Origin: Microvirga splendida | Lineage (GTDB): Bacteria > Pseudomonadota > Alphaproteobacteria > Rhizobiales > Beijerinckiaceae | Assembly: GCF_016427565.1 (NCBI RefSeq) | Contig: NZ_JAELXT010000007.1 | Location: 1-64,000, forward strand | DNA: 64,000 nt | Direction: 5' to 3' | Shown: positions 22,436 to 49,254 of the stretch, one piece after another | Position numbering within the stretch: position 1 is the stretch's first letter | How the letters are laid out: each line of letters starts with the position of its first letter | The notes under the pieces: model-generated | Told to the model about the DNA's origin: nothing | Databases searched by the model: none | What the model saw: the letters and a program-made list of their open reading frames with translations, nothing else | Position numbers and translations under genes: made by a program

Positions 22436-22521
22436 CATCATCTCCTCTATGGGACCGCCTGGCGGATCGTTCTGGTCCGTCATCGGATGGAGACTTTGTA
22501 CTCCTCAGCTTCCCAGGCTTA

Positions 22522-25495: not shown

Positions 25496-27409
25496 CTATC
25501 GAACGAGATGCCGGTAGATCGCCGGAAGGGCGGAAGGGAGTTTCGCCACCTGACCGACGATGGCATAGCCGCCCCGGCCGAAGAGGGTGGGGAAGTAGGA
25601 CTGCGCCTCACGGTCCACCGTCACGCCGAACACGGTGACGCCGGCGCGGCGCGCCTCCATGACGGCCTTGCGCGTGTCCTCGATGCCGAAGCGGCCCTCA
25701 TAATAATCGATGTCGTTCGGCTTGCCGTCGGTGAGCACCAGCAGCAGCTTCTGCCGGTTTGGACGCTCCGCGAGTTTCGCCGTGGCGTGGCGGATACCCG
25801 CCCCGATGCGGGTGTAGTAGCCGGGCTTCAGCGCCGAGATGCGTCGCACCACGGCTTGGCTCATGGGCTCGTCGAAGTCCTTCACGGTCTCCACCCGCAC
25901 CCAGGTGCGCCGCCGCGAGGTGAAGGTCAGGATGGAATGCGAGTCGCCGCAGGCGGCCATTCCGTGCGCCAGCACCATGAGCGCCTCCTTCTCCACGTCG
26001 AGCACGCGCCTGTTGTCGATCCAGGCATCGGTGGAGAGCGAGACATCGACCAGCAGCGTCACGGCGAGATCATGGGCCTGGCGCTTGCTGGCGAGATGGA
26101 CCCGATCCGAGCCGCAGCCCCCCGAAAGCAGATCGCTGCGGGCGCGCACGAGTGCATCAATGTCGAGCTCCTCGCCGTCCGGCTGCGCCCGAAGAACCTC
26201 GTGCTTCGGCCGCAGCGCCTCGAACTGCCGGCGAACCCGCCGGATCATCCGGCGGGCCTCGTCATCAGCGTCCCAGGCCTCACCCTGTTCGGAGGCAGGG
26301 GCTGCCAGCACGCGGCAATGGCTCGGCAGGTAGGCTTTGCGGGTGTAGTCCCACTCCGGATAGGTCAGGTCGGCCGTCAGGCTCGTGGTGTCGACGGCCT
26401 CGGGCGGCAGGTCGAGGTCGAACTTGAGCTTCGTGGCGGGCTTGCCCTTGTGCTTGGAGAGCGGAATCTCCTCCATCTCGTCCAGGGCCTTTTCGGCGTT
26501 CTCGTCCTCGTCATCGTCGGAGGGCCGGTTGACGTTGACCATCTCCGCCATCGCCAGGATCTTCTCGAACCGGTTGAGGATGAACGGATCGCTGCGCTGG
26601 GCCTGATCGGCCTCGCGCCTTGCGGCAAAGCGCTTGCGCGTGTCGGACGCGGCGAGATCGCTCGGGCCGGCGGGCTCGTCGCTGTTGCGGCCCGGCTCAC
26701 CGCCTTCGCGGGCCCAGGTGTCGCCCCAGAGCGGGACGGGCAGGAAAAGCTGGTAGCCGGCAGGGGCCTGCCGCGGCAGGGCCGCGTCGCCGGCGGCGGT
26801 GTTCCAGAGGGCAGGCGGCGATGCATCGGCGGCGCCCAGCAGCGAGAGCACGATCTGCTCGATCCTGCTCTCAGCGGCCGGCAGGGGGCGTTGCGGCCGC
26901 GCCTCGCGCATGGCGGTGCAGAGTTCGTTGTACGTTGGCGTCAGTCCGGGGCACTCCGCCAGGACGGCGGCGACCGTCTCCTGCACCCGCCGGAGGACCA
27001 TAAGGTCCCGGCGCAGCGGATCGGCCTCGGTGATCGGGCTTGTCGGCACATGGGCGAAGTAGGCCGCCAGCCACAGGTACAGTGATCGGTTGAGCACGCT
27101 CGACGGAAACAGCTCGATCCTCGGCGGCAGGAACAGGGTGGCCGCGTCCCGTCCCGGCTGCTCCAGCCGCTCCTCGGTGACCCCGAGCCGCTGAAGAAAA
27201 TTCAGGCGGTGGGACGAGGCGCGGGCGGCAGTGCCCGCGAGCTGTACGCCGGCCTCGCCGCCGAGCCCACGGAAGAAAACGGCGAGGGATCCGCGGACCT
27301 CATCGAGGGAGACGCCAAGCTCGGGGTAGCGCGGGTAGGTGACCGCACGGCCGACCAGCCGGTGCCAGAACTGGCCGACGGTTTCTTCGAGCTCCAGAAA
27401 GTCGAGCAT
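25496..27409 (-). CDS. norD: Nitric oxide reductase activation protein NorD (VWA domain)
   Basis: This 637-residue protein ends in a von Willebrand A domain with the metal site DVSLSTD (about 465-471) and TDGKPND. The N-terminal region matches NorD, including the acidic stretch DDDEDENAEKALDEMEE. NorD acts with the AAA protein NorQ to insert metal into or assemble the NorCB complex. It is last in norEFCBQD and is separated from norQ by 14 bases. No defect is seen. Confidence 0.95.
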   Translation of the reverse strand: MLDFLELEETVGQFWHRLVGRAVTYPRYPELGVSLDEVRGSLAVFFRGLGGEAGVQLAGTAARASSHRLNFLQRLGVTEERLEQPGRDAATLFLPPRIELFPSSVLNRSLYLWLAAYFAHVPTSPITEADPLRRDLMVLRRVQETVAAVLAECPGLTPTYNELCTAMREARPQRPLPAAESRIEQIVLSLLGAADASPPALWNTAAGDAALPRQAPAGYQLFLPVPLWGDTWAREGGEPGRNSDEPAGPSDLAASDTRKRFAARREADQAQRSDPFILNRFEKILAMAEMVNVNRPSDDDEDENAEKALDEMEEIPLSKHKGKPATKLKFDLDLPPEAVDTTSLTADLTYPEWDYTRKAYLPSHCRVLAAPASEQGEAWDADDEARRMIRRVRRQFEALRPKHEVLRAQPDGEELDIDALVRARSDLLSGGCGSDRVHLASKRQAHDLAVTLLVDVSLSTDAWIDNRRVLDVEKEALMVLAHGMAACGDSHSILTFTSRRRTWVRVETVKDFDEPMSQAVVRRISALKPGYYTRIGAGIRHATAKLAERPNRQKLLLVLTDGKPNDIDYYEGRFGIEDTRKAVMEARRAGVTVFGVTVDREAQSYFPTLFGRGGYAIVGQVAKLPSALPAIYRHLVR

Positions 27410-27423
27410 GGCGTGTCTCCGGA

Positions 27424-28236
27424 TCAGGCGAGCGTCGCGCGGGCGACCTCAATCAGGGCCTTCTTGACGTCGAGTTCGTCGGTCAGCGGCTCGATCATGG
27501 TGGCGAGCACGGCTTCTTCCGCCGGGAGGCCTGCCGCAATCAGGGACGCGCAGTAGACCAGCAGGCGTGTGGACACGCCTTCCTCCAGATCCTGACCTTT
27601 CAGTGCCCGCAGGCGGCGGGCCAGCAGCAGAAGCGGACGGACACGCTCCGTGGACAGGCTGCTCTCCGCTGCTACGACGGCGATCTCGTGGTCGATGGGC
27701 AGGAAGTCGAACTCGATGGCGACGAAGCGCTGACGCGTCGAGGGCTTCAGCGACTTGAGCAGGGTCTGGTAGCCGGGATTGTAGGACACGACCAGCATGA
27801 AGGAGTCCGGCGCCTGCAGCTCCTCACCCGTCCGGTCGAGCGGCAGGATGCGGCGGTCGTCGGTGAGCGGATGCAGCACCACGGTGACGTCCTTGCGGGC
27901 CTCCACGATCTCGTCAAGATAGCAGATGCCGCCTTCCCGGACGGCGCGGGTCAGAGGGCCGTCCGCCCACACCGTGTCACCGCCCTTGAGAAGGTAGCGG
28001 CCGGTGAGGTCGGCGGCCGTGAGATCGTCATGACAGGAGACCGTGTGGAGCGGCAGGCCGAGCCTCGACGCCATGTGGGCGACGAACCGGGTCTTGCCGC
28101 AGCCGGTCGGACCTTTGAGGAGCAGGGGCAGGCGCTTGCTCCAGGCGAGCTCGAACAGAGCGCATTCGTTGCCGGCAGGAACGTAATAGGGCAGGTCGAA
28201 GGCCGGCTGCGGCACGGCATGAAGAAGCGGCTTCAT
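27424..28236 (-). CDS. norQ: NorQ, MoxR-type AAA ATPase for NO reductase assembly
   Basis: This 270-residue MoxR/CbbQ-family ATPase has Walker A GPTGCGKT at 42-49, Walker B region GGICYLDEIVEARKD (so DE at about 106-107), an arginine-finger region and the family's C-terminal lid. NorQ works with NorD to activate NorCB. It lies between norB and norD, 67 bases downstream of norB, in a gap holding a hairpin. Confidence 0.95.
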   Translation of the reverse strand: MKPLLHAVPQPAFDLPYYVPAGNECALFELAWSKRLPLLLKGPTGCGKTRFVAHMASRLGLPLHTVSCHDDLTAADLTGRYLLKGGDTVWADGPLTRAVREGGICYLDEIVEARKDVTVVLHPLTDDRRILPLDRTGEELQAPDSFMLVVSYNPGYQTLLKSLKPSTRQRFVAIEFDFLPIDHEIAVVAAESSLSTERVRPLLLLARRLRALKGQDLEEGVSTRLLVYCASLIAAGLPAEEAVLATMIEPLTDELDVKKALIEVARATLA

Positions 28237-28269
28237 GGGGAGATTCCTTGAATAGGGGATTCTGGAAAC

Positions 28270-28293
28270 GGGGCGGCTTGCGACAGCCGCCCC
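28270..28293 (-). other. Intercistronic hairpin between norB and norQ
   Basis: GGGGCGGCT and its reverse complement AGCCGCCCC flank TGCGAC. With no T-run it is probably a partial terminator or an RNA-stabilising stem that would set norCB levels above norQD. Confidence 0.5.
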
Positions 28294-28303
28294 GAGGAGA
28301 CGC

Positions 28304-29650
28304 TCACTCTGCGGGCTGCAGACTTTGCGTCAGGCGTGGCGCCTTCTCGCGCCCGGGGACGAACACCGCGTAGACGAACATGATCGCCGAGATCAGCACG
28401 AACACGCCCGAGCCGAGGCGGATCCAGTAGAACAGGGCGAGCTGGTCCTGGACGTCCATGTACGACTGCCCGAGCACGCGTTGCAGATGGACCTGGATGA
28501 CGCCCGCGAAGGTGAGGGCGAAGGTCATCACCGACATCGCCGTGCACATGATCCAGAAGCTCACGATGCTGAGCATCTGGTTGTAGGGCTGACGACCCAG
28601 GATCTGCGGCATGGCATAAGCCATGAGGGCGAGGTTGAGCATCACGTAGGCGCCGAAGAAGGCGAGGTGCCCATGCGCGGCGGTGACCTGCGTGCCGTGG
28701 GTGTAGTAGTTCACCGACGACAGGGTGTGCAGGAAGCCCCAGACCCCCGCGCCGAAGAACGCCATCACGGAGCAGCCGATGGACCACAGCAGCGCTGCCC
28801 GGTTCGGGTGCTTGCGGCCGGCCTTCCAGGTCATCTGGAAGGTGAACACCACCATGGTGAAGAACGGTGCGACCTCAAGCGTCGAGAACAGCGAGCCGAT
28901 CCATTGCCAGTAGCCGGGGGCGCCGATCCAGTAGAAGTGGTGGCCCGTGCCGAGGATGCCGGAGAACAGCGCCATGCCGACGATGACATAGAGCCACTTC
29001 TCCACCACCTCGCGGTCGATGCCGTTGAGCTTGATCATCAGGAAGGCGAGCACGGAGGCCATGATCAGCTCCCAGACGCCCTCGACCCAGAGATGCACGA
29101 TGTACCACCAGTACATCTTGTCGACCGCGAGATTGATCGGGTTGTAAAAGGCGAACAGGAAGAAGATCGCCACGCCCCACAGGCCGAAGAGCAGGATGTT
29201 GGTGACGACGGTCTTGCGCCCCTTGAGCGCCGTCATGGTGATGTTGAACAGGAACATCAGGCACACGACGACAATGCCGACCTTGATGATGAAGGGCTGT
29301 TCAAGGAACTCACGTCCCTCGTGGATCTTGAACAGGTAGCCAACCACCGCGATACCGGCCGCGCCGAAGAACATCCAGAACTGGATCTTCGCGAGAAGCG
29401 GGCTGAAGAGCTCGGTCTCGGTTTCCTCCGGAACCAGGTAGTAGGTTGCGCCCATGAAGCCGATCAGCAGCCAGACGATCAGCGCGTTGGTGTGGATCAT
29501 CCTGACGACGTTGAAGGGCAGAAGTTCGGAAAGTGTGTTGGGAAGAACATAGATCGTGCCGGCGAGAACACCGAACAGGACCTGGGCGATGAACAGGGCC
29601 AGCGCTCCATAGAAATAGAGCAGGGCCACCTTCTGTGTTTGATATTTCAT
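28304..29650 (-). CDS. norB: Nitric oxide reductase large subunit (cNOR)
   Basis: This 448-residue protein has about 12 membrane helices and the NorB signatures: TNALIVWLLIGFMGATYYLVPEE, HLWVEGVWE, and GTGHHFYWIG with the metal-binding histidines. The histidines for heme b, heme b3 and the non-heme FeB are in the expected helices. With NorC it reduces NO to N2O in the inner membrane using periplasmic electrons. It starts 16 bases after the norC stop. The last about 20 residues are cytosolic. Confidence 0.97.
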   Translation of the reverse strand: MKYQTQKVALLYFYGALALFIAQVLFGVLAGTIYVLPNTLSELLPFNVVRMIHTNALIVWLLIGFMGATYYLVPEETETELFSPLLAKIQFWMFFGAAGIAVVGYLFKIHEGREFLEQPFIIKVGIVVVCLMFLFNITMTALKGRKTVVTNILLFGLWGVAIFFLFAFYNPINLAVDKMYWWYIVHLWVEGVWELIMASVLAFLMIKLNGIDREVVEKWLYVIVGMALFSGILGTGHHFYWIGAPGYWQWIGSLFSTLEVAPFFTMVVFTFQMTWKAGRKHPNRAALLWSIGCSVMAFFGAGVWGFLHTLSSVNYYTHGTQVTAAHGHLAFFGAYVMLNLALMAYAMPQILGRQPYNQMLSIVSFWIMCTAMSVMTFALTFAGVIQVHLQRVLGQSYMDVQDQLALFYWIRLGSGVFVLISAIMFVYAVFVPGREKAPRLTQSLQPAE

Positions 29651-29666
29651 GATGACGATCCTGGTC

Positions 29667-30119
29667 TCAGCCGGCCTTGTTCGGCGGCCAGTTCTGGGTC
29701 TTGATGCGGCTGGTCCATTCCAGGAAGTCCGCGAGATCGTCGAGTTCCTGGTCGGTCAGGTTGAATTGCGGCATCTGGCGGCGGCCTTCGATGCCGGTCG
29801 GCTGGGCCGCCATCCAGGCCTTCAGCGTCTCGCGGGCGCCAACCGGGTCTTCCTTGCCGCCATAGCGATCCCAAACATTGCCGAGTTCGGGGGCGAAATA
29901 GGCTCCCTCTCCCAGGATCGAATGGCAATTGATGCAGGAGTGCTTCTCCCACACGTGCTTGCCGCGGGCGACGGAGTCGGTCAGCGTGGAGACGTCGGTG
30001 GACGTGGTGTTCATGTAGTAGTGGCTATGGGCTGTCAGGCCCACGAAGATGGCGAAGAAGAAGAACGAGCCCCCGTAGAACACGTTTCTTGCCGCCGATT
30101 TGGTGAGGGCTTCAGCCAT
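29667..30119 (-). CDS. norC: Nitric oxide reductase cytochrome c subunit
   Basis: This 150-residue protein has one N-terminal membrane helix (FYGGSFFFFAIFVGLTAH region) and a heme c motif CINCH near 61-65, with a distal methionine in RRQMPQFNLT. NorC passes electrons from cytochrome c or pseudoazurin to NorB. ATG 30119 is chosen as the family's start; upstream in-frame residues cover the FNR-box region and do not match NorC. An NnrR-type box is centred about 89 bases upstream. Confidence 0.95.
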   Translation of the reverse strand: MAEALTKSAARNVFYGGSFFFFAIFVGLTAHSHYYMNTTSTDVSTLTDSVARGKHVWEKHSCINCHSILGEGAYFAPELGNVWDRYGGKEDPVGARETLKAWMAAQPTGIEGRRQMPQFNLTDQELDDLADFLEWTSRIKTQNWPPNKAG

Positions 30120-30200
30120 CACGGGTTCCTTTCTTGAAGAGCAGGGAGGCACAGGTGCGGCGTGCGCGCCCATTGGATGACAGGAGCAGCAGCCCTGCTC

Positions 30201-30216
30201 TTTGCGCTGGAGCAAG
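30201..30216 (-). promoter_or_regulatory. NnrR-type box before norC
   Basis: TTTGCGCTGGAGCAAG carries TTG-N8-CAA. Centred about 89 bases before norC, it places a class II start near 30167. It allows norCBQD to be transcribed apart from norEF. Confidence 0.6.
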
Positions 30217-30516: not shown

Positions 30517-31101
30517 TTATCCAATCAGGTAGACGAGCGGGTACATCACGACCCAGACCAGATCGACCATGTGCCAGAAGGCAGTGCCGGTCTTCAGGTT
30601 CTCGATGCTGTCCGAGAGCGCGACGGCGGCCAGGATGACGATGCCGAGCACGACATGGAGGAGGTGGAATCCGGTCAGAAGGAAGTAGAGCGTGAAGAAC
30701 GTGTCGGTCTCCAGGCCAATGCCTGCCTGGGCCTTCGCGGCGTACTCTGCGACCTTGATGACGATGAAGACGAGCCCCAGCGCCATCGCTCCCCCGAGCT
30801 GCAGCCGCGCCGCCCCACGCTGCCCGGTGGACCTGACCTCGACCGCCAGGGCGGCCAGCCAGCCGCTGGTGATCAGGACAAGGGTGTTGATGCCCCCGAG
30901 AACCGGGTCGAGCTGCGCTTGGCCCGCCGCGAAGAGATCGGAATGGACGGCCTTTGTGACCGCGAAGGTGAGGAAGAGAAGACCGAAGGTGACGACCTCG
31001 GTCAGGATGAGCACCCACATCATCGGGTGCCCGGGCAGGTCCGAGAGGGCGCCCCAGGGGCGGTCTTCCTGCGCAGCGTTCGCCGCTGTTGCCGGATCCA
31101 T
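30517..31101 (-). CDS. norE: NorE, cytochrome oxidase subunit III-like protein
   Basis: This 194-residue protein has about five to six helices of the CoxIII family, e.g. WVLILTEVVTFGLLFLTFAV, LVLITSGWLAALAVEVR and FFTLYFLLTGFHLLHVVLGI. In nor operons this gene is norE and is needed for full NO reductase activity. It is first in norEFCBQD and has a TTG-N8-CAA box about 70 bases upstream. Its end is closely coupled to norF. Confidence 0.85.
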   Translation of the reverse strand: MDPATAANAAQEDRPWGALSDLPGHPMMWVLILTEVVTFGLLFLTFAVTKAVHSDLFAAGQAQLDPVLGGINTLVLITSGWLAALAVEVRSTGQRGAARLQLGGAMALGLVFIVIKVAEYAAKAQAGIGLETDTFFTLYFLLTGFHLLHVVLGIVILAAVALSDSIENLKTGTAFWHMVDLVWVVMYPLVYLIG

Positions 31102-31165
31102 GGCTTTATTCCTTCAGGGCGGGTGGGCCGATGGCGCCTCGTACCGCCCGGTACCGCATTCTTCG

Positions 31166-31179
31166 TTGCGGTGGCTCAA
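31166..31179. promoter_or_regulatory. NnrR/FNR-type box between norE and a small membrane gene
   Basis: TTGCGGTGGCTCAA lies in the gap between norE (minus) and the 51-residue membrane gene (plus) at 31239. It could serve either promoter, centred about 71 bases before norE and about 66 before the plus gene. Confidence 0.55.
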
Positions 31180-31238
31180 ACAAATCCCGCGCGTTCTCGG
31201 CCATAGAGGGACAGCTTTGAACACAGGAGAGCCCTCTG

Positions 31239-31394
31239 ATGGGTGACGCCCAGGTTGGTTTGGTGATGGCGACGCCGTTGATCGTCATCTTCGCCGTCAT
31301 GCTGTACCGGATGGGGGTGCTGCGCCCGACCGGCACGATCACGGCGGTGACCATGTCGGTCGTGATTGCGGCCGTCCTTTTCCTCACGCAGTAA
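31239..31394 (+). CDS. 51-residue membrane protein beside norE
   Basis: ATG 31239 has AGGAG nine bases upstream and opens a 51-residue frame with two hydrophobic helices (about 8-23 and 32-49) joined by a short RMGVLRPTG loop, ending LFLTQ. This composition is typical of a bitopic or hairpin small membrane protein. A decayed second copy lies at 60635-60761, beside a second NorF-like gene, so the pair recurs. No family is known to me. A shared box at 31166 ties it to the nor genes. Confidence 0.7.
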   Translation: MGDAQVGLVMATPLIVIFAVMLYRMGVLRPTGTITAVTMSVVIAAVLFLTQ

Positions 31395-31441
31395 GATCCT
31401 CGGACTGGCCTGCCGGGATCCGCCCCCACCGTCCGGCAGAG

Positions 31442-32134
31442 CTATCCCAGGGCCGTGAGGCCGGCGAGGGGATCCACGCCGATGAGAAGCGCGTGTCCCT
31501 GCAGAACGAACCAGGCGTACAGGGCAGCGGCAATCAGCGCGGGCACGAACAGCGGCCGCAATGAGCGCCACCGGGCCCGTCCCGAGAGGAGCGCTGCGAA
31601 GGGAAGGACGGAGGTTCCAACAGCCAGCTCGCGCCAGCGCTCCGGGCCGAGGCGCTTGCAGGCCTTGACGTCAAGCAGGATGAACCCGAGCAGCGAGAAC
31701 AGGGCCATCGCGCCGAACAGCAGGAGCGCGACCGCGGTTCCGTTCGGTGGGATGTGAGCCGCCGCCCAGAGCAGGAAGGCCCACAGGACCGGGTGCCGTG
31801 TGATGGCCGTGATTGGGCCAGGCTCGCTGCCGCCGCGCAGGGAGATCGAGAGCGGATTGGCCGACAGGAGGCCGGCGACGAACAGGAATGCCGCGACCGG
31901 CATGACGATGAACGGAACATGCCACTGCCACGGGGCCGGATCCCACAGCCACACGGTGTCGGTGCGTTGGGCGGCCATGATCAGCCAACCGAGCAGGATG
32001 AGAGACAGGATCGAATAGACGGTCAGATAGGCTGTCCGGCCCATAAGCAGGATCAGGCGAGCCCGCAGGCCGCGGCTCGCCGGGATCAGATGGGCCGCCA
32101 GAAAGGTGGCCAGCGCGACGCAGAACTCGATCAT
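31442..32134 (-). CDS. nnrU: NnrU-family membrane protein
   Basis: This 230-residue protein has about six helices and the NnrU features: an N-terminal AHLIPASRGLRARL segment, GRTAYLTVYSILSLILLGWL, and a conserved ITRHPVLWAFLLWAAAH motif with the histidine. NnrU is needed for nitrite/NO reduction in Rhodobacter, but its exact role is unclear. It lies between the converging small gene and the DUF2249 gene. Confidence 0.9.
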   Translation of the reverse strand: MIEFCVALATFLAAHLIPASRGLRARLILLMGRTAYLTVYSILSLILLGWLIMAAQRTDTVWLWDPAPWQWHVPFIVMPVAAFLFVAGLLSANPLSISLRGGSEPGPITAITRHPVLWAFLLWAAAHIPPNGTAVALLLFGAMALFSLLGFILLDVKACKRLGPERWRELAVGTSVLPFAALLSGRARWRSLRPLFVPALIAAALYAWFVLQGHALLIGVDPLAGLTALG

Positions 32135-32216
32135 TGGTTGGCCTCCTTGACTGGCGCAGGCCCGCCCGGGAGGTGGAGCCCGATGCGGTCCATATCTGAT
32201 CCGCCGCCGGGCTCGC

Positions 32217-32462
32217 TCAGGCGGCGCGGCTTATGCGGACCCGCCAGAGCTCCGGCCCCTCTTCTTGGTAGTCCCAGCCGAACGCGCCCGGACGCTGGAC
32301 ATTGAACTGGTAGAACAGTGGCCTGGGGTCATGGTCGTTGACGAGCAGGAACGCCTCGCCGGGGGCGAGTTGGTCGAAGGTGTTGAAGATCAGGGGATGG
32401 CGCATCCGCGGCATGATCTGGCGGACGTCGATGACGGTTTCGGTGACATTGCAATTGCACAT
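32217..32462 (-). CDS. DUF2249 protein
   Basis: This 81-residue protein begins MCNCNVTETVIDVRQIMPRMRHPLIF and has the DUF2249 core LAPGEAFLLVNDHDPRPLFYQF, then a FGWDYQEEGPELWRVRI end. The family has a TusA-like fold and is common in denitrifiers. The CNC near the N-terminus could bind metal. The ATG at 32462 has AAGGAA upstream. The NnrR-type box at 32659 lies about 205 bases upstream. Confidence 0.8.
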   Translation of the reverse strand: MCNCNVTETVIDVRQIMPRMRHPLIFNTFDQLAPGEAFLLVNDHDPRPLFYQFNVQRPGAFGWDYQEEGPELWRVRISRAA

Positions 32463-32658
32463 CGGACAGCGTTCCTTGGTGCGCGGCCTGGAAGCTTCGG
32501 GCCGCGAGTGATGATGGGATCGGGACACCGGACAGGCTGCTCACCGGACCGTCGTCCCCACGGGAAGGCGACCTGACACCGACGCGCACGGCGCCCATCG
32601 GCAATCCTCGACCTCCCGTTTCGACGGCGCGACCTTGGCTGGCTGATCCGTCGTCTTC

Positions 32659-36134: not shown

Positions 36135-36145
36135 TCGCGTTTTTG

Positions 36146-36161
36146 TTTGCTGTGCCGCAAA
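36146..36161 (+). promoter_or_regulatory. NnrR-type box before the small membrane-P450-Crp genes
   Basis: TTTGCTGTGCCGCAAA carries TTG-N8-CAA and lies 12 bases after the MFS stop, centred about 64 bases before the small membrane gene. It is the likely promoter element for three downstream genes. Confidence 0.65.
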
Positions 36162-36217
36162 GCAGGCGTGCCGCCGATGGTGCAACAAGCACGCGTTGCC
36201 TGTCCTGGAGCCTGCCG

Positions 36218-36454
36218 ATGCCCGTCCCGTCTGATCGTCCCCTGCTGCGCCCTCTCGGTCAGGGGCTCGCCGTCGCGGCGCTGCTGGCCGGAATGGCCCT
36301 GATGGCCTTCGCTGCAGGGCTCGCGCTCCTGGGAGCCATGATCGGGCTGCCGATTGCCGTCGGCCTCATGGCGCTGCGGCAGCGCCTTCGGGGCGGGTCC
36401 GAACCTGCGGTGGCCGGCGCCTCGACTCTTGCTCCGCGCCTGACGCCGCGATGA
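36218..36454 (+). CDS. Small membrane protein upstream of P450
   Basis: This 78-residue protein has two hydrophobic helices (about 13-33 and 36-48 region, LAVAALLAGMALMAFAAG and [16 protein letters not shown]). ATG 36218 has GGAG seven bases upstream; a longer in-frame start at 36131 would read through the box at 36146 and is rejected. Its stop overlaps the P450 ATG by four bases (ATGA), so the two genes are translationally coupled. Function is unknown. Confidence 0.6.
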   Translation: MPVPSDRPLLRPLGQGLAVAALLAGMALMAFAAGLALLGAMIGLPIAVGLMALRQRLRGGSEPAVAGASTLAPRLTPR

Positions 36455-37680
36455 CAGCCGCCCGCCTCCGAGCGGGCCAACAGAACCCATACCATCCGTT
36501 CCACCAGATCATTCCCATGAGCAACAACCGACAGCCTGACTGGGATCCGCGGTCCCCGGCGGTTTTCGACGACCAGATCGCCGCCTACGACCGCATGCGC
36601 GGCCGCTGCCCCGTGGCCCGCAGCGACTATCTGCACTGGTCCGTGTTCCGGCACGCCGACGTGCTGCGGGTGCTGGAGGACCACGGCACCTTCAGCAATG
36701 TCGTCTCCCGCCACCCCTCCGTGCCCAACGGCATGGATCCGCCCGAGCACACGGCGTACCGGGCGCTCATCGAGCCGTACTTCGCGCCGGAGCGGGTGCG
36801 GGCCTTCCAGCCGGTCTGCCGGGGCGTTGCCGCCGATCTGGTGGGCCAGCTCCCGGCCGGCGGCGGGGTCGAGCTGATGGGCGGCTTCGCCCGAGACTTC
36901 GCCCTGCGGATCCAGTGCGCCTTCATGGGCTGGCCGGCGGAGCTGCACGAGCCGCTGCGGCAATGGACCCATCGCAACCAGGAGGCGACGCTCTCCGGCG
37001 ACCGGGCCGCCACCGCGGCCGTGGCGCTGGAGTTCGACGGCTTTGTCAGGGGCCTGCTGGACGCGCGCCGCAAGGCCGGCAACGCCGCGCCGGACGACGT
37101 GACCACCCGCCTGCTCCGCGAGCGGATCGGGGATCGGCCGCTGAGGGACGAGGAGATCGTCAGCATCGTGCGCAACTGGACCGTGGGCGAGCTGGGCACC
37201 ATCGCGGCGAGCGTCGGGATCCTGGCGCACTACTTGGCCGCCCATCCCGACCTGCAGCGGCGCATCCGGGAAGACCCCTCGCTGCTGCCTGCCGCCATCG
37301 ACGAGATCCTGCGCATCCATGCCCCCCTGATAGCCAACCGCCGGATGACGACGCGGGCGGTGGAGATCGGCGGCCGTCGGCTGGAGGCAGGGGCGCGCAT
37401 CAGCCTGATCTGGGCCTCGGCCAACCGCGACGAGGCCGTCTTCGGCGATCCGGACGAATTCCGGCTTGACCGGGATTCGGCGCACAACCTTCTCTACGGC
37501 GCCGGCATCCATGTCTGCCCGGGAGCGGAGCTGGCCCGGCTGGAGCTGCGCGTCGTGATGGAGGAGCTCCTGGCCCGCACGCGTGCGTTCGCGCTCATGC
37601 CGGACAAGCCTCCGGTACGGGCGACGTACCCGGCGGGAGGATTCACCTCGTTGGCTTTGTGGGTTGAACGATGCTCCTGA
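36451..37680 (+). CDS. Cytochrome P450 in the denitrification island
   Basis: This 409-residue P450 has heme-ligand Cys356 in YGAGIHVCPGAELAR, the ExxR pair E285/R288 and an I-helix segment VGELGTIAAS (about 245-254). In P450cam the matching segment is GGLDT; here the acidic residue is glycine while the threonine remains. P450nor, a fungal NO reductase, also lacks that acid. The start at 36451 is favoured by the ATGA overlap; ATG 36517 is an alternative. A Crp/Fnr regulator follows with an overlap of 10 bases. No redox partner is visible. Confidence 0.85.
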   Translation: MTAARLRAGQQNPYHPFHQIIPMSNNRQPDWDPRSPAVFDDQIAAYDRMRGRCPVARSDYLHWSVFRHADVLRVLEDHGTFSNVVSRHPSVPNGMDPPEHTAYRALIEPYFAPERVRAFQPVCRGVAADLVGQLPAGGGVELMGGFARDFALRIQCAFMGWPAELHEPLRQWTHRNQEATLSGDRAATAAVALEFDGFVRGLLDARRKAGNAAPDDVTTRLLRERIGDRPLRDEEIVSIVRNWTVGELGTIAASVGILAHYLAAHPDLQRRIREDPSLLPAAIDEILRIHAPLIANRRMTTRAVEIGGRRLEAGARISLIWASANRDEAVFGDPDEFRLDRDSAHNLLYGAGIHVCPGAELARLELRVVMEELLARTRAFALMPDKPPVRATYPAGGFTSLALWVERCS

Positions 37681-38477
37681 CTGAACGGCCCGGGCCCGCG
37701 CGTTGGTCCAGCGATGAACCAACAGATGCCGGAGACCGGGACGAGCCCATGCGTGATGGTGTGGAGACCATAGGCCTTCTGGCCGGGCTTGCGCCGGAGA
37801 TTGCCGCCGACCTGCTGCGGCAGGCGCAGCGGCGGACGGTGCATGCCGACGAGGTGCTCTTCACGGCCGGGCAGCCCGCCCGCTCGGTGCATGTGCTCGC
37901 CTCCGGCGCCGCCAAGCTGATGCAGACCACACCCAAGGGGGCTCGGGTCATCGTCAAGTATGTCCGGCCCGGCGAGGTCTTCGGCAGCCCCGCCCTGCTG
38001 GACAGGTTCTATCCCGTGGATGCCGTGGCGGTCATGGACGGCGTGGAGCTGCAATGGCCCTCGGAGCTGCTCAGGACCTTCATCGACCGGCAGCCGCGCG
38101 TGGCGTTCAATGTCATCCACGATCTGGAGACACGCCTGCGCGAGATGGAGGACCGGCTGCGGGACCTCTCGAACGAGCCGGTCGAGCACCGTCTGGCGCG
38201 CGCGATCCTCAAGCTCGTCGACACCTTCGGCCGTCAGACCGACGATGGTGTCGAGATCCCGTTCCCGGTTGGCCGCCAGGACCTGGCCGACCTCATCGGC
38301 AGCACCCTGCCCACCGTGAGCCGGACGCTGCGCGCCTGGGAGACGCAGCGGCAGATCCGGCGCTCCCGGCGCCGGCTGGTCATCGCCGATGTCGAGGCCG
38401 TGGCGCGGGTGCTATACCAGGACACCGCGCCGGAGCCGAAGCCCCGGCGAAGCCACCGGCGGGCCGCGCGGCGCTAG
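37671..38477 (+). CDS. Crp/Fnr-family regulator (NnrR/Dnr-like)
   Basis: This 268-residue regulator has a cyclic-nucleotide-like beta barrel (about 30-150) and a helix-turn-helix GRQDLADLIGSTLPTVSRTLRAW. In the recognition helix FNR's E..SR is P..SR here (TLPTVSR), as in denitrification regulators of the NnrR/Dnr group. FNR's N-terminal cysteines are absent, so it is not an O2-sensing FNR. Its start overlaps the P450 by 10 bases; ATG 37749 is an alternative. It may control some of the TTG-N8-CAA boxes here. Confidence 0.85.
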   Translation: MLLTERPGPARWSSDEPTDAGDRDEPMRDGVETIGLLAGLAPEIAADLLRQAQRRTVHADEVLFTAGQPARSVHVLASGAAKLMQTTPKGARVIVKYVRPGEVFGSPALLDRFYPVDAVAVMDGVELQWPSELLRTFIDRQPRVAFNVIHDLETRLREMEDRLRDLSNEPVEHRLARAILKLVDTFGRQTDDGVEIPFPVGRQDLADLIGSTLPTVSRTLRAWETQRQIRRSRRRLVIADVEAVARVLYQDTAPEPKPRRSHRRAARR

Positions 38478-38602: not shown

Positions 38603-38833
38603 TCACGACCGCCAATGGTTGTTCGCCGCCGCTATCGTCTGGAAGTGGATGGCGATGACCTGCGAGATGGCGATGAGCTGGGCGGAATCCTGCTCATAGG
38701 CCGCCCGCAGCTTGTCGCGCACCTGATCGGAGGGTTGGGTCAGCTTGACACCCATCCGTGAGAGCCTGACGGCGAGGTCGAACCCCTCCTGGGGTGTCGC
38801 TGTCACCAGCGAAGGAAGCCAAGAATCGGACAT
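38603..38833 (-). CDS. Small hypothetical protein upstream-end of cytochrome region
   Basis: This 76-residue protein starts at ATG 38833 with GGAG eight bases upstream. It is helical and soluble, with a TQPSDQVRDKLRAAYEQDSAQL segment (about 36-57, given as a region). No domain is recognised. It lies downstream of the cytochrome gene on the same strand, with a 144-base gap. Confidence 0.5.
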   Translation of the reverse strand: MSDSWLPSLVTATPQEGFDLAVRLSRMGVKLTQPSDQVRDKLRAAYEQDSAQLIAISQVIAIHFQTIAAANNHWRS

Positions 38834-38977
38834 CGATGTCTCTCCTGGAGCCTGTGGAACGCAACCGGGATGGTTGCGCTTGGCGGATCGGTGGAGGTGC
38901 ATGAAGGAACCCGGCGGCAGGAACGGGTATGGTTCGCTCCCGTCCGCCTGCGGCCTCCATGCCTGCCGCTGGGGAGC

Positions 38978-41264: not shown

Positions 41265-41296
41265 GCATCGGCATTGCCTGCCGGACTGCCATCGCC

Positions 41297-41350
41297 GGGA
41301 CATCCGGGGGAGAACCGAAGCGCCTTCGGCCCGTTCTCCCCGGGTGTCCC
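41297..41350 (+). terminator. Long hairpin between ctaD and fdxA
   Basis: GGGACATCCGGGGGAGAAC pairs, with a bulge, with the complementary run ending TGTCCC at 41350 around a nested CGAAG..CTTCGG stem. It is probably the ctaD terminator. Confidence 0.55.
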
Positions 41351-41366
41351 TGACGAAAGGCCTGTG

Positions 41367-41705
41367 ATGACGCATGTGGTGTTGGAGAACTGCATCCGGT
41401 GCAAATACACGGATTGCGTGGAGGTCTGCCCGGTCGACTGCTTTTACGAGGGCGAGACCATGCTGGCGATCCACCCGGACGAGTGCATCGATTGCGGCGT
41501 CTGCGTGCCGGAGTGCCCGGCCGAAGCCATCGTGCCGGACTCGGAACCCTTCGACCCGGTCTGGCTCGACATCAACCGGCAGTACGCCTCGCAGTGGCCC
41601 AACATCACCCAGAAGAAAACCCCGGCGGTCGATGCCGATGCCATGAACGGGGCGCCGGGCAAATACGGGCAGTTCTTCAGCCCTGAGCCGGGCACCGGCG
41701 ACTAG
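41367..41705 (+). CDS. fdxA: Seven-iron ferredoxin FdxA
   Basis: This 112-residue ferredoxin has the [3Fe-4S] set CIRCKYTDC...CP and the [4Fe-4S] set [12 protein letters not shown], in the typical FdxA arrangement with a long C-terminal tail. It transfers low-potential electrons in the cytosol. The ATG at 41367 starts the family N-terminus MTHVVLENC. It follows ctaD across a hairpin and converges on the DUF4142 gene. Confidence 0.93.
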
Positions 41706-44968: not shown

Positions 44969-45885
44969 CGCGCGGCCTCCTGCGTGAGAAGGAAGTGGGC
45001 ATAAAGCTCATCGAGGGTCGGCGGGATTACGTCGAGATCCTCGACCGGCGCACCTTCGTCGGTGGCGCGGCGCAGCACCTCGATCTTCCTGTCTGGCGCG
45101 GCGTCGATCTCGACCATTTGGCCGTTGATGCGGCGCCAGCCATCGACAGGGCCGAGCCAGTTCGGCACGTTGGCCAGCCCCGTACCGGTGACCTTGAGGC
45201 GGATTCGTGTCGGCAGGCGCGCGATGCGGCGCAACTCGTCGAGGGTGCCGTCGGCGACCTTGATCCCGCGGTTCATGATGATGACGCGCCCGGCACGCTC
45301 CTCCAGCTCCGTCAGGGCGTGCGACGACAGCAGGACGGTGGCCCCGCGTCCGCGCAGCTCCTCCACGATCTCGTAGAAGCTCTGGCGCAGGGCAGGATCG
45401 AGGCCGGTGGTCGGCTCGTCAAGCAGGAGCACCCGCGGCTCACCCAGCAGCGCCTGGGCCAGCCCGAGCCGCTGGCGCATACCCTTGGAATAGGTGCCGA
45501 CCCGGCGGCCTGCCGCATGGGTGAGGCCGACGCGGTCGAGGAGCGGTGCGACCGATTTGGCGGGCTCACGCTTCAGGCGAGCATAGAAGGCCAGCGTCTC
45601 GGAGCCCGTCAGGGCTGCATTGAAGGAGACGTTCTCGGGCAGGTAACCCAGCCTGCGGCGGGCTTCGAATTGCCCAGCGACGGGATCGTCACCGAGCACG
45701 GAGATGCTGCCGCTGGTCGGCTTGATCAACCCCAGCATCAGCTTCATCAGCGTGGTCTTGCCGGCGCCGTTGTGGCCGACGAGCGCCACCGTCTCGCCCT
45801 CGGGCAGGCTGAACGAGACGTCGCGCACGGCCTCGACCTTGCCGAAGCGCTTGACGACGTCGCGGATCTCCACCGTTCCGGTCAT
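44965..45885 (-). CDS. nosF: NosF, ATPase of the NosDFY transporter
   Basis: This 306-residue ABC ATPase has Walker A GHNGAGKTT, signature YSKGMRQRLGLAQ, Walker B LLLDEPTTGLDP and the switch histidine in SSHALTE. It powers NosY. Its start overlaps nosD by four bases (CATGACC), and its end overlaps nosY by four. Confidence 0.95.
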   Translation of the reverse strand: MTGTVEIRDVVKRFGKVEAVRDVSFSLPEGETVALVGHNGAGKTTLMKLMLGLIKPTSGSISVLGDDPVAGQFEARRRLGYLPENVSFNAALTGSETLAFYARLKREPAKSVAPLLDRVGLTHAAGRRVGTYSKGMRQRLGLAQALLGEPRVLLLDEPTTGLDPALRQSFYEIVEELRGRGATVLLSSHALTELEERAGRVIIMNRGIKVADGTLDELRRIARLPTRIRLKVTGTGLANVPNWLGPVDGWRRINGQMVEIDAAPDRKIEVLRRATDEGAPVEDLDVIPPTLDELYAHFLLTQEAAR

Positions 45886-47279
45886 GGCCGGCCTCCTTCC
45901 GCAACCGTCTTCGGGCGCACCGGCGGCGCCATGAGCGGCTTGCTGTCGACCACGCCGCCCGGCAGGAGGGCAGGGAACTGGGCCTGAGCCCAGCGGATCA
46001 CCTGCACGGCGGGGCTGTTCATCAGCACCTTCGCCTGCGGCGCGGTCCAGAGCACCTTGTCGACGAGGTCGTTGGGGCGGTAGGCGCTGTCGCCCAGCCC
46101 GTCGCCGTTGAGGTCGAAGGCCGGGTTGTCCGACCAGTAGTTGCCGCGACCGTCCTTGGACCAGTCGAGGTAGCGCGTGCTGACGTATTTCACCTGGTTG
46201 CGGTTCCTGATGAAGGCATTGCCGACCATCTCGTTGCGCTCGGAGCCGGCCGTGAAGTGAATACCGATCTCACAGCCCTCGAACCAGTTGTCGCGGAACC
46301 TGTTCTGGTTGGCGTTGTAGATGAACACGCACTTCGTCGGCCCGGGGCGGGCGTCGGCACCCTGTGTCAGTTCGGCAGCGTCCGATGCCGGAAGACCATG
46401 CTCCTTGTCGTCCTTGCCGCGCGTACCGGCGTTGGTCCAGCGCTCGGCGGGCTGGAGGCGTCCAAGCACGGTGTTGCCGCTGATCTGGGATCCGTTCGCG
46501 TAGTTGAACAGGAAGCCGTGATCGCGGTCGCCGTCCGAGACATTGCCCGTGATCTTCAGGCGGCTGGAGAACATCATCGCGAAGCCAACGGCGTTATTGA
46601 CCGACACGTTGTCCGTGATCTCGCTGTCATTGGTGTACATGTAGTGGATGGCGAAGCGCAGATCGCGGAAGCGGTTGCCCGAGAACACGTTGCGCTTGCT
46701 GGTGATCACGTAGATGCCGTCGCGCCCGAAGCGCACGTCGTTGTCGAGCACCTTGGCGCCAGTGGCGTTCCAGACCGAGATGCCGTTCCCGGCCTCGTTG
46801 AGGCGGCCCTCCTCGATGCCGATGATCGTGTTGCCGCGCGCGATGGAATTCTCGGCCCCGTGAAGGTAGATGCCGTAGAGATTGCCCTCGATCTGGTTGC
46901 CCTCGACAACGGCGCCCGCGGCCGTCTTCTCGACGAAGACCCCCGCGTCCATTTTCTCCAGGTCCGTGCCCGAGCCGCGGATGGTCAGCCCGCGCACGAC
47001 AGCACCCGGGGCCGAGACCGTGACGACGCTCCCCCGGCCCGGTCCGGTCAGGACGGCGCCCGCCTCGCCTTCAACGGTCAGCCGGCGGGTGATCCGGACC
47101 GGGCCGCGGTGCTCGCCGCGCTTCAGGACGATCACGTCGCCCTCGGCGGCGAGATCGATGACGTCCTGGACCGCATCGCCCGTCGCGACGGCGATGCGTT
47201 CAGCCCGGGCGGGCAGGGCGAGGCCGGCGGCGAAGATCGCCGCCAGCCCCATTCGTATCATGGTACGAAGTCCCATCAT
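45882..47279 (-). CDS. nosD: NosD, periplasmic beta-helix copper-assembly protein
   Basis: This 465-residue protein has a signal peptide (ending ALPARA) and a right-handed parallel beta-helix (many NxI and GN repeats, e.g. GNQIEGNLYGIYLHG, DNVSVNNAVG). It receives copper from NosL and passes it to apo-NosZ in the periplasm. It starts four bases after the nosZ stop, using ATG 47279 or 47276. A decayed copy of its 3' end lies at 52889-53115. Confidence 0.95.
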   Translation of the reverse strand: MMGLRTMIRMGLAAIFAAGLALPARAERIAVATGDAVQDVIDLAAEGDVIVLKRGEHRGPVRITRRLTVEGEAGAVLTGPGRGSVVTVSAPGAVVRGLTIRGSGTDLEKMDAGVFVEKTAAGAVVEGNQIEGNLYGIYLHGAENSIARGNTIIGIEEGRLNEAGNGISVWNATGAKVLDNDVRFGRDGIYVITSKRNVFSGNRFRDLRFAIHYMYTNDSEITDNVSVNNAVGFAMMFSSRLKITGNVSDGDRDHGFLFNYANGSQISGNTVLGRLQPAERWTNAGTRGKDDKEHGLPASDAAELTQGADARPGPTKCVFIYNANQNRFRDNWFEGCEIGIHFTAGSERNEMVGNAFIRNRNQVKYVSTRYLDWSKDGRGNYWSDNPAFDLNGDGLGDSAYRPNDLVDKVLWTAPQAKVLMNSPAVQVIRWAQAQFPALLPGGVVDSKPLMAPPVRPKTVAEGGRP

Positions 47280-47283
47280 GTCG

Positions 47284-49254
47284 TCAGGACGCCTGCGGCT
47301 CGACGAACATCCGGCCCTTCATCTCCATGTGCATGGCATGGCAGAACCAGGAGCAGAAGTACCAGTACACGCCGGGCCGGTCCGCCGTGAACGTGACCGA
47401 GGCCGTGGCCTGGGGCGCCACCTCCATGTTGATGCCGTAATTGACGATGGCGAAGCCGTGGGTCAGGTCCTCGACCTCGTCGACATTGGTCACGTACACC
47501 GTCACCTCGTCGCCCTGCTTCACCTGGAAGGACTCCAGCCCATAGGCAGGTGCGGCCGAGGTCATGTAGACCCGCACCTTGTTGCCGTCGCGGATCACCT
47601 CCGAGTCGGTTTCCAGGGTGATGCCGTCGGCCTTGGCCTGCTGCACCGCATCGGCGAAGAACGGGTCGTCGCGCTTCCAGGTATGCACCGGGTTGATCTT
47701 GGAACGGTGCACGATGGTGGCGTCGTGCGGCTCCGCGAAGCTCGGGCCGTCATGGACGAGCACCATGCGATCACCGGAGATGTCGATGAGCTGGTCGTTC
47801 TCAGGCTTGAGCGGGCCGACGTTGAGGTAGCGGTCCTTCGAGAATTTGTTCAGCGAGATCAGCCACTTGCCGTCCGCCTCCTTGGTCTGCCCCATGGAGG
47901 TGTGGTTGTGACCCGGTTGATAATGCACGTCGAGCTTCTGGATCACCGGATTGACCTTCTCGCCCGCGAAGGCACGCCGGGCGAGGTCGATGTTCCACTT
48001 CACCACCTGGCTGTCGAGGAACAGCGTCGTGTAGGCGTTGCCCTTGCCGTCATAAGCGGTGTGCAGCGGGCCGAGACCCAGCTCCGGCTCGGCCACGACC
48101 ACGTCACGCGGCTTGATCTTGTCCGCGAACAGGTCGTCGAGCTTGCGGGCGTCGAAGACCGTAACGGTCGGCGACAGCTTGCCGTTGGCCACGAAGTGGA
48201 TGCCGTCCGGCGCGGTGTTGATGCCGTGCGGGCTGTTCGCCACCGGAATGTAGCGGGTGAACTTCGAGCCCTGGCGGCCGTCGAGGAGGGGTACGCCGCC
48301 CACCGTCTGGGCTTCGCCGGCCTTCACGGCGTCCTCAATGGCCTTGAGGTTGAAGACGACGACCCAGTCCTGCTCCTTGGCCATCATCTCTGCCAGCGTC
48401 ACACCCTCTTCCGAGTTGTAGCAGGTGGCCCAGGCGTACTTGCCCTGGTAATCGGCGTCGACGTTGTCGAGGTTGCCGTCGACCCGGATCTGCCACGCCA
48501 CCTTCATGGTATCGCCGTCGACGGCCGTGAAGATCGACGAATACTGCTTCGGGTCGTCGAGGATCTTGCCGTCGTTCGGGATCGGCACGCGATCCTCGCC
48601 GTTGCAGAACACGTAGCCCGTGCGCGGGTACTTCTGCACGCGCAGCCCGTGGACCGTGTGCTGGTTGGGCAACTGGATGATCTTGTCGCACTTCATCACG
48701 TCGAGCCGGATTCGGGCGACGCGGGTGTTCAGCTTGTCGTTCACGAACAGGTAGCGCCCGTCGTAGGTGCCGTCCGTGAAGGACAGGTGGGGGTGGTGCA
48801 GGTCACCGGCCGTGTAGACCCCGCCCTTGTCCTTGAGATACTCGACGCTATCCGGCGTCAGGCCCTCGGTGAGGATCTTGCGGCTCTCGTTGGTCTGGCC
48901 CCAGCCGGTGGCGCTGTCGCGGTTGAAGACCGGGATGCGCATCAACTCGCGCATGGACGGCAGGCCGACGATGCGCACCTCGCCGGTCTGGCCGCTGGAG
49001 AAGAACACGTAGTACTCGTCGAGCTCGCCGGGCTTGACCTCGTACTTGTTGGCGACCGCGGGGCGCGCGGCCGGCGCGCCAGGAGCCGTCTGCGCCTCGG
49101 CCGGCGTGACCAAGCCCGCATCCTTCAGGGACACCCCGCCCGCGACGCCTGTCGCTCCGGCGGCCGCCACCGCGGCAGTCGTTCCAAGCAACTGGCGACG
49201 GCTGAGGCCGTTTTTGTTTTCTTCCTGTGACACGTGAGTCTCCTTCTTGGTCAT
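47284..49254 (-). CDS. nosZ: Nitrous oxide reductase (clade I, Tat-exported)
   Basis: This 656-residue NosZ has a Tat leader with [10 protein letters not shown] and a seven-bladed propeller whose histidines (for example DLHHPHLSF and AQH-type) form the CuZ cluster. Its C-terminal cupredoxin has the CuA ligands in [12 protein letters not shown]. It reduces N2O to N2 in the periplasm. The SRRxxL Tat motif and length indicate clade I. It lies between nosR and nosD and overlaps nosR by four bases. Confidence 0.97.

Follow-up and report, generated by a model that had tools for sequence, protein, structure and literature searches.

By a long-used rule, oxygen cleavage in cytochromes P450 is driven by an acid plus an alcohol on the active-site I-helix. 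Reduction of nitric oxide (NO) by a P450 is described for fungi in the available parts of two papers (PMC4030948, PMC10743073), the second of which gives the P450nor reaction as 2 NO + NADH (reduced nicotinamide adenine dinucleotide) + H+ -> N2O (nitrous oxide), so that the chemistry is feasible in a P450 fold; CYP55 also appears in the accessible portion of a review on an alga (PMC7412212). Here we describe a bacterial P450 of probably 387 residues (36517..37680, + strand) encoded in 64,000 nucleotides of Microvirga splendida (assembly GCF_016427565.1, contig NZ_JAELXT010000007.1, positions 1 to 64,000; hereafter the window), where it lies inside an island of denitrification genes. On balance, the evidence assigns this P450 to nitrogen-oxide metabolism, while the reaction itself is something we infer from sequence. 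The comparisons reported below suggest a link to nitrogen oxides that is stronger than the window's own letters could show. Among the matches listed in a search of the open literature, with subscription journals largely outside its reach, no paper concerned a P450 in bacterial denitrification clusters, and earlier reports may exist; in the portion of PMC6710368 available, a P450 occurs only in a cited title, that of a 1972 study of heme proteins, P450 among them, in Rhizobium grown anaerobically on nitrate.

The window protein matches PF00067 at 71.8 bits (Pfam cut-off 22.8) and carries the I-helix sequence RNWTVGELGT and the heme loop LLYGAGIHVCPG. Relatives were sought with six seed peptides in one genome per species (84,980 species), which gave 353 seed matches and 314 stretches with a relative at E 1e-3, a lax value that may admit other P450s; the best 80 of these stretches, 62-88% identical to the window P450, serve as the family loci. 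Of the six seeds, only VRNWTVGE overlaps the I-helix motif, and conservation of the motif is therefore partly selected; the same motif is also present in five plasmid loci (L137-L141) found by tblastn without seeds. We aligned 25 family members jointly (MAFFT) with P450nor and 40 other P450s, these being the P450-search matches in the window's genome, family and class and not a survey of all P450s. The I-helix rows shown need no gap, and residues were counted over 85 of 86 family rows, with L107 left out.

At the column of the usual acid (D251), D or E stands in 35 of the 40 other P450s and Ala in P450nor, and BLAST likewise pairs window Gly249 (numbered on the longer open reading frame, ORF) with P450nor Ala242. 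The family has Gly in 66 rows, Ser in 10 and Ala in 9, with an acid in none of the 85. The preliminary description had read VGELGT as lacking the acid before threonine, and the gap-free alignment bears this out, as it brings no acid back to the D251 position. Two positions earlier, at the column of P450nor Gly240, all 40 other P450s have Gly and all 85 family rows have Glu. The I-helix Thr, three residues after this invariant Glu, is also kept in 85/85, so the Asp/Glu-Thr pair of oxygen-activating class I monooxygenases is absent from the family and a Glu stands two positions upstream of it. As the alignment has it, the I-helix acid is not merely lost but appears to have moved two positions upstream. 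Helix geometry would place Glu and Thr on roughly the same face, from which the Glu may reach the distal pocket.

Other positions are similarly fixed. Arg241, Asn242 and Trp243, one to two turns before the acid column, are almost invariant, C356 is present in 85/85 rows, and E285 and R288 are conserved at 98% or more. The P450nor Ser286 column holds Leu in 25/25 aligned family rows (85/85 at window residue 293). Where P450nor has Lys291, the family has Arg in 85/85 (window residue 297), and R or K occurs in 5 of the 40 other P450s. More distant relatives differ at the Glu column: two from Deinococcus (40-41% identity) have Asp there, and in one from a cyanobacterium (45%), whose helix is shorter by one residue, His takes this place.

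Neighbouring genes were compared across 86 loci of 3.2-25 kb, 18 of them from Halomonadaceae, using hidden Markov models (HMMs) for 20 gene types that include nar, nir, nor, nos, NnrS, Hmp, a NorR-type activator, hemerythrin, DUF2249 and the hexameric tyrosine-coordinated heme protein (HTHP). The types were picked for their recurrence near the P450, and 40 control stretches of the same genomes were scanned with identical HMMs; these stretches lay on contigs known from other matches and were thus not random (one, L170, is only 5.9 kb). At least one type occurs in 51/86 loci and in 3/40 controls (Fisher odds ratio 18, p = 1.8e-8, which overstates independence), and a nitrogen-oxide type lies within 1 kb of the P450 in 34 loci and within 5 kb in 50. 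HTHP, hemerythrin and DUF2249 are unproven as nitrogen-oxide genes, and some norB matches are weak (L075, 22%). A narrower set of 13 types (nar, nir, nos, norC/Q/D, NnrS and nnrU), which leaves out HTHP, hemerythrin, DUF2249, norE, Hmp and the NorR type, is represented in 40/86 loci and 0/40 controls. Without the 18 Halomonadaceae loci, the counts are 33/68 for the 20 types and 22/68 for the 13.

The partners vary by lineage: a nir cluster in Halomonas, narGHJI-narK in Paraburkholderia and Caballeronia, nor genes in Cognatazoarcus and, in Pseudomonas, a GAF-sigma54 activator with the architecture of NorR (Pfam). In Paraburkholderia fungorum and Caballeronia sp. SBC1, narGHJI and the genes of a peptidylprolyl isomerase and a nitrate/nitrite transporter precede the P450, and genes for NnrS, hemerythrin and DUF2249 lie no more than 12 kb away. 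Pfam assigned other recurrent neighbours to cytochrome d1-domain, NirDL-like, radical SAM (read as NirJ), flavohemoglobin (read as Hmp), NnrS and HTHP proteins; the Hmp-type gene is found in 12/86 loci. P450 redox partners are often encoded elsewhere in the genome, and among the selected ORFs of 81 loci, screened by Cys motif with reductases outside the search, no ferredoxin-like short ORF lies within 3 kb of the P450.

Whole genomes give a concordant picture. Fifty were picked from the 80 loci, leaving out small metagenome contigs and some Halomonas, and every one matches at least one of narG, nirK, a d1-type gene or NorB, in keeping with the link to nitrogen oxides supposed in the preliminary description. 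NarG is above its cut-off in 38/50 and NirK in 21/50, a d1-domain match at E <= 1e-100 occurs in 22/50, and a NorB-like protein is present in 36/50 (E <= 1e-25, a threshold that quinol-type NorB may escape). Nine genomes have neither NirK nor a strong d1 match, and seven of these have no NorB match either; the seven (five Burkholderiaceae, Neoroseomonas soli and a metagenome-assembled genome, or MAG, of Acidobacteria) all carry NarG above its cut-off. In the family of Halomonas G544, the P450 was found in 30 of 201 genomes, a NorB-like protein in 57 and both in 28, so that NorB accompanies 28/30 genomes with the P450 against 29/171 without it (Fisher odds ratio 69, p = 3e-16, with independence overstated for related genomes).

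Upstream DNA fits the link to nitrogen oxides as well. The window operon is preceded by an 18-base NnrR-type box, GTTTGCTGTGCCGCAAAG (36145..36162, no strand given), which agrees at 12 of the 14 specified positions with the NnrR consensus ctTTGcgnnnncgCAAag, taken from the accessible part of PMC1274295. The 64 kb window holds 4 sites at 12/14 or better where 0.05 are expected from 100 shuffles, and 27 copies of TTG-N8-CAA against 7.1 (standard deviation 2.6). By this upstream site, the P450 falls under a predicted NnrR-type nitrogen-oxide regulon. In two other Microvirga loci (L057, L058) a TTG-N8-CAA with a changed centre lies at about the equivalent position. Our main test elsewhere was an FNR-like score over the 400 bases 5' of the P450, one locus with too little upstream DNA being excluded. 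The best match to TTGAT-N4-ATCAA reaches at least 8/10 in 27/80 loci (8.0 expected from shuffles; 7/80 inside the P450 gene) and at least 9/10 in 12/80 (1.0 expected; 1 inside the P450 gene), while 53/80 have no FNR-like site of at least 8/10. Plain TTG-N8-CAA occurs upstream in 19/81 loci against 4.5 expected (3/81 inside the P450 gene), and no sigma-54 promoter pattern was seen 5' of the P450 among the loci scanned.

In light of these observations we favour, with a probability of roughly 45%, the reading that this is an accessory P450 family of nitrate respiration and denitrification, which would reduce NO by a route of its own, most likely to N2O. We rank NO reduction first because O2 would be scarce when the predicted regulators act, because the O2-cleaving acid is gone while the helix has an acid at another position, and because genomes with narG and no nir or nor match carry the P450. 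Its expression would be expected in the presence of nitrate, nitrite or NO at low oxygen, and NO would bind its ferric heme. The acid for O2 protonation being absent, the Glu in its new place could, with the conserved Thr, form the proton source for the Fe-NO species; a nicotinamide cofactor might supply the electrons directly, or a shared donor encoded elsewhere might do so, and NO would then be reduced in the cytoplasm, most likely to N2O. The P450 would back up membrane NorB and could replace it in nitrate reducers without a nirK, d1-type or NorB-like match. A more specific form of this reading, which we offer tentatively, is that the family represents a second, independent origin of a P450 reductase of NO (or another nitrogen oxide), this one bacterial and soluble. 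Its I-helix acid would have shifted from the D251 column to that of the invariant Gly, there to protonate NO on the heme, and the enzyme would have been passed around denitrifying and nitrate-reducing bacteria as a substitute for membrane NorB and other NO reductases. The earlier suggestion that the P450 handles NO or another nitrogen oxide is thus upheld as to the link, through neighbourhoods, genome co-occurrence and FNR/NnrR-type boxes, with NO turnover itself a prediction from sequence.

Several observations weigh against NO reduction. Association with nitrogen-oxide genes gives no reaction. None of the 20 gene types lies within the available stretch at 35/86 loci, and the neighbours sampled for these (20 proteins from 15 loci, some outside the group of 35) are varied, including an aldo/keto reductase, LeuA, an aspartyl-type tRNA synthetase and antiporters. 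Most P450-carrying genomes (36/50) already have a NorB-like gene, and 29 genomes of the Halomonas family have NorB and no P450. In the family of Mesorhizobium G573 (199 genomes) the P450 occurs in only 2, one being the seed; nirK is above its cut-off in both, but the same holds for 81/199 overall, and the test is uninformative. Relatives on two Deinococcus plasmids and one cyanobacterial plasmid (about 40-45% identity) are not beside denitrification genes, and one of them adjoins a cluster for sulfate assimilation, one gene of which bears the name nitrite/sulfite reductase. P450nor Gly240 and Ser286 are not kept in the window family, and the closest solved structures are ordinary hydroxylases. 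This last point, together with the fold, the Thr kept in 85/85 rows with Glu three residues before it, an FdxA ferredoxin 3.6 kb off and the varied neighbours just listed, favours the chief competitor, a monooxygenase that uses O2 on an organic compound and simply happens to sit in an anaerobic or nitrate regulon, with the moved Glu delivering the protons of D251 and a housekeeping ferredoxin, e.g. FdxA, donating electrons. We consider it unlikely, though the most serious of the competitors: no substrate-pathway gene set stands out among the annotated recurrent neighbours, whereas nitrogen-oxide genes do, and the FNR/NnrR-type sites suggest that the gene is expressed at low O2.

Loss of the O-O cleaving acid could also leave an oxy- or nitrosyl-heme long-lived, and the P450 would then trap NO, make nitrate from NO and O2, or signal NO to the Crp/Fnr protein. 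The Hmp-type flavohemoglobin gene in 12/86 loci, of a family known as NO dioxygenase, fits such a scavenger, dioxygenase or sensor, as does the overlap of the P450 with the Crp/Fnr gene in the window and two other Microvirga. However, that gene adjoins the P450 in only 2/80 relatives, and none of the 85 rows departs from the family residue at the Glu, Thr and Arg columns, a constancy expected of an enzyme, which makes this account improbable. We give still less credence, and very little, to nitration or nitrosation of an organic molecule with NO or nitrite in the style of TxtE and RufO. Those enzymes use NO, according to the part of PMC9500659 available, the neighbouring genes here make NO, and TxtE is one of the NCBIfam models that match weakly (4e-24; 85 bits, with the cut-off at 500); yet this model fits the window P450 no better than several other P450 models do, and no biosynthetic gene set is seen among the annotated neighbours. 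If NO reduction by the P450 is true, denitrifiers would have an unrecognised cytoplasmic route for NO and hence N2O, as would nitrate reducers that yielded no NO reductase gene. The Gly-to-Glu and acid-to-Gly swap would be a natural experiment on proton delivery in P450s, with the acid-plus-alcohol rule testable by mutation.

The best 80 loci come mostly from alpha-, beta- and gammaproteobacteria; three belong to MAGs of Acidobacteria and one to a MAG labelled Actinobacteria. Plasmid records gave six further matches at 59% identity or more, five of which were taken as L137-L141. Within the window's GTDB family (149 genomes) and class (385 genomes) no close relative besides the window itself was found, the best-scoring other P450s being 33% and 39% identical, respectively. 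A 90-row tree puts the window beside Microvirga; the five class labels require 12 changes where the minimum is 4, and an uncultured Halomonas row (L134) groups with five betaproteobacteria (support 100/99). Horizontal transfer is the simplest account, and the family has probably spread in part this way, with labels, bins and paralogues as cautions. Two copies (L064, L078) occur in Rhodoblastus isolate BP08. A separate P450 group (L036, L037; 37-39% identity), which forms a distant branch, has the I-helix VGIIAPT, without the acid and without the usual Thr position. We also observed that the two Microvirga genomes of L057 and L058 (G530, G531) have two NorB copies each, 96-98% identical to window NorB, and that a third Microvirga genome has one, 93% identical; this suggests, from sequence identity, a duplicated and recently exchanged denitrification island in Microvirga.

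The preliminary description had placed the P450 in a locked operon with a small membrane protein and a Crp/Fnr regulator, behind an NnrR-type box and inside a denitrification island. The P450, the small ORF, the Crp/Fnr gene and the box are real features of the nirK-hemN-nor-nos island, and the pattern described is more than chance. The first ORF (36218..36454, + strand) encodes 78 residues with a single hydrophobic stretch of about 40, enough for one or two membrane helices, and matched no family; neither did its longer form (36131-36454) among Pfam and NCBIfam models. The P450 is followed, with an overlap of 10 bases that recurs in Microvirga L057 and L058, by a Crp/Fnr-family regulator of 268 residues (37671..38477, + strand; PF00027, PF13545 (HTH_Crp_2), PF00325), which is identified by these domains alone, as no NCBIfam model matched it at cut-off. 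The overlap of 4 bases between the small ORF and the P450 lacks support: it depends on a start at 36451, giving a P450 of 409 residues in one frame through 37680. The P450 probably starts at 36517 and leaves a 62-base gap after the small ORF, because 74/80 relatives align to the long ORF only from residue 14 or later and because in Microvirga L058 the first ATG past an in-frame stop is the common MSN start.

The operon itself holds for Microvirga and not beyond. Relatives of the small ORF occur in 3/80 loci, all Microvirga (L057, L058, L059), and a Crp gene stands next to the P450 in 2/80 (L057, L058). Of 80 relatives, only two, both Microvirga, share the full unit with the window; the Crp/Fnr gene is therefore no general partner of the P450, and we reject the three-gene operon as a rule of the family. 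Just 5' of the box lies an MFS exporter (34827-36134) resembling the TetA type (280 bits, under the curated cut-off of 475), and a CcmE-domain gene followed by an MFS exporter is an order common to the window and Microvirga L057 and L058.

The assignment of the surrounding island stood as well. On the - strand are nirK, for a copper nitrite reductase (21335..22483; TIGR02376, 332.9 bits against a cut-off of 296.3), norD, norQ, norB and norC (25496..30215; VWA, CbbQ_C, COX1 and cytochrome c domains), a norE-like COX3 protein with nnrU and a DUF2249 protein (30517..32528, by domains), and nosD and nosZ (45882..49254; TIGR04247 and TIGR04244 above cut-off). On the + strand, hemN (22750..24102; TIGR00538 above cut-off) encodes an oxygen-independent coproporphyrinogen III oxidase. 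Pfam assigned norQ and nnrU; the names norB, norC, norD and norE rest on domains plus gene order. On the 3' side of the P450 are HTHP (38603..38902, - strand; PF11534), a c550-like cytochrome, a CtaD-like subunit and FdxA (41274..41705, + strand; NF045490, 159.1 bits against a cut-off of 135), the ferredoxin gene that had been put at about 4 kb.

Some further neighbours recur in the 86 loci. HTHP is near the P450 in 13 (Halomonas, Microvirga, Rhodoblastus, Neoroseomonas) and in 0/40 controls. An SdhB-like iron-sulfur subunit, of the succinate dehydrogenase (SDH) type, lies 0.1-3.5 kb from the P450 in 17 loci (L068, L072, L075, L124, L125 and Halomonas; three matches are partial), and it is possibly a shared electron donor or part of a second SDH; control stretch L178 also has such a protein, at 60-68% identity. 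A MarR-type regulator of 140 residues stands on the same strand no more than 200 bases upstream in 18 loci and anywhere in the locus in 22 (among them L068, L069, L071, L079 and L096), and a Yip1-domain membrane protein occurs in 18 (Pseudomonas, Stutzerimonas, Halomonas). Peptidase U32 proteins, which we take to be of the UbiU/UbiV kind (oxygen-independent ubiquinone synthesis), are found in 11 loci, including L057, L058, L081 and L096, and in 0/40 controls. On the Burkholderiaceae plasmids of L137 and L138 the P450 lies between a protein of about 136 residues named ribonucleotide reductase subunit alpha, a doubtful name at that length, and a PAS-domain protein.

By structure, the window protein is an ordinary P450. 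An AlphaFold model made with no heme (mean pLDDT 91.3, pTM 0.92) matches P450s over its whole length, and the traits of the superfamily are present (Cys heme-ligand loop, ExxR, PF00067). The top rows from Foldseek and VIA include EryK, EryF, CYP109 enzymes, TbtJ1 and P450cam, and for the hydroxylases EryK (3zkp/2jjo), EryF (1oxa) and P450cam the VIA Z is 42-43 and the root-mean-square deviation 2.2-2.7 over 370-379 residues. Fold alone does not tell function. Bacterial class I hydroxylases (EryK, EryF, TbtJ1 5vws, P450cam) share about 22-30% identity with the window P450. P450s with the standard I-helix carry Gly and Asp/Glu at the two columns that hold Glu and Gly/Ala/Ser in the window family, and no ferredoxin-like short ORF was found beside the P450 among the selected ORFs of the 81 loci.

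The described systems of nitrogen-oxide biology resemble the family in part. Like TxtE and RufO, the window protein has a P450 fold and NO as a possible reactant; unlike here, their known members sit in natural-product pathways, according to the part of PMC9500659 seen, and the TxtE model falls far under its cut-off. The reconstructed NnrR/DNR/NorR/NsrR regulons (PMC1274295) share with the window the match to the NnrR consensus and name nnrS, hmp, nor, nir and nos as members, whereas the main text of that reconstruction mentions P450 nowhere. P450nor (CYP55A1, the Fusarium NO reductase; 1cl6, 1ehe, 1jfb) is absent from the 50 rows that each structure comparison displayed, which is no proof of difference. 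By the usual rule, members of a P450 family share more than 40% sequence identity. The window P450 has 34% identity to P450nor over 131 residues, compared with the C-terminal 183 residues of P450nor alone, and we reject membership in CYP55 on this figure and on the replacement of Gly240, part of the P450nor I-helix motif A-G-x-A-T, by an invariant Glu and of Ser286 by Leu; Ser286 touches the NADH amide in P450nor, as stated in the part of PMC4030948 available. The parallel with P450nor that had been drawn thus fails on these counts and holds for the missing acid before Thr. The two share, besides, a heme-thiolate center, the kept Thr (Thr243 in P450nor), a basic residue at the Lys291 column and a tie to denitrification, which for the window family is bacterial and lies among prokaryotic denitrification genes.

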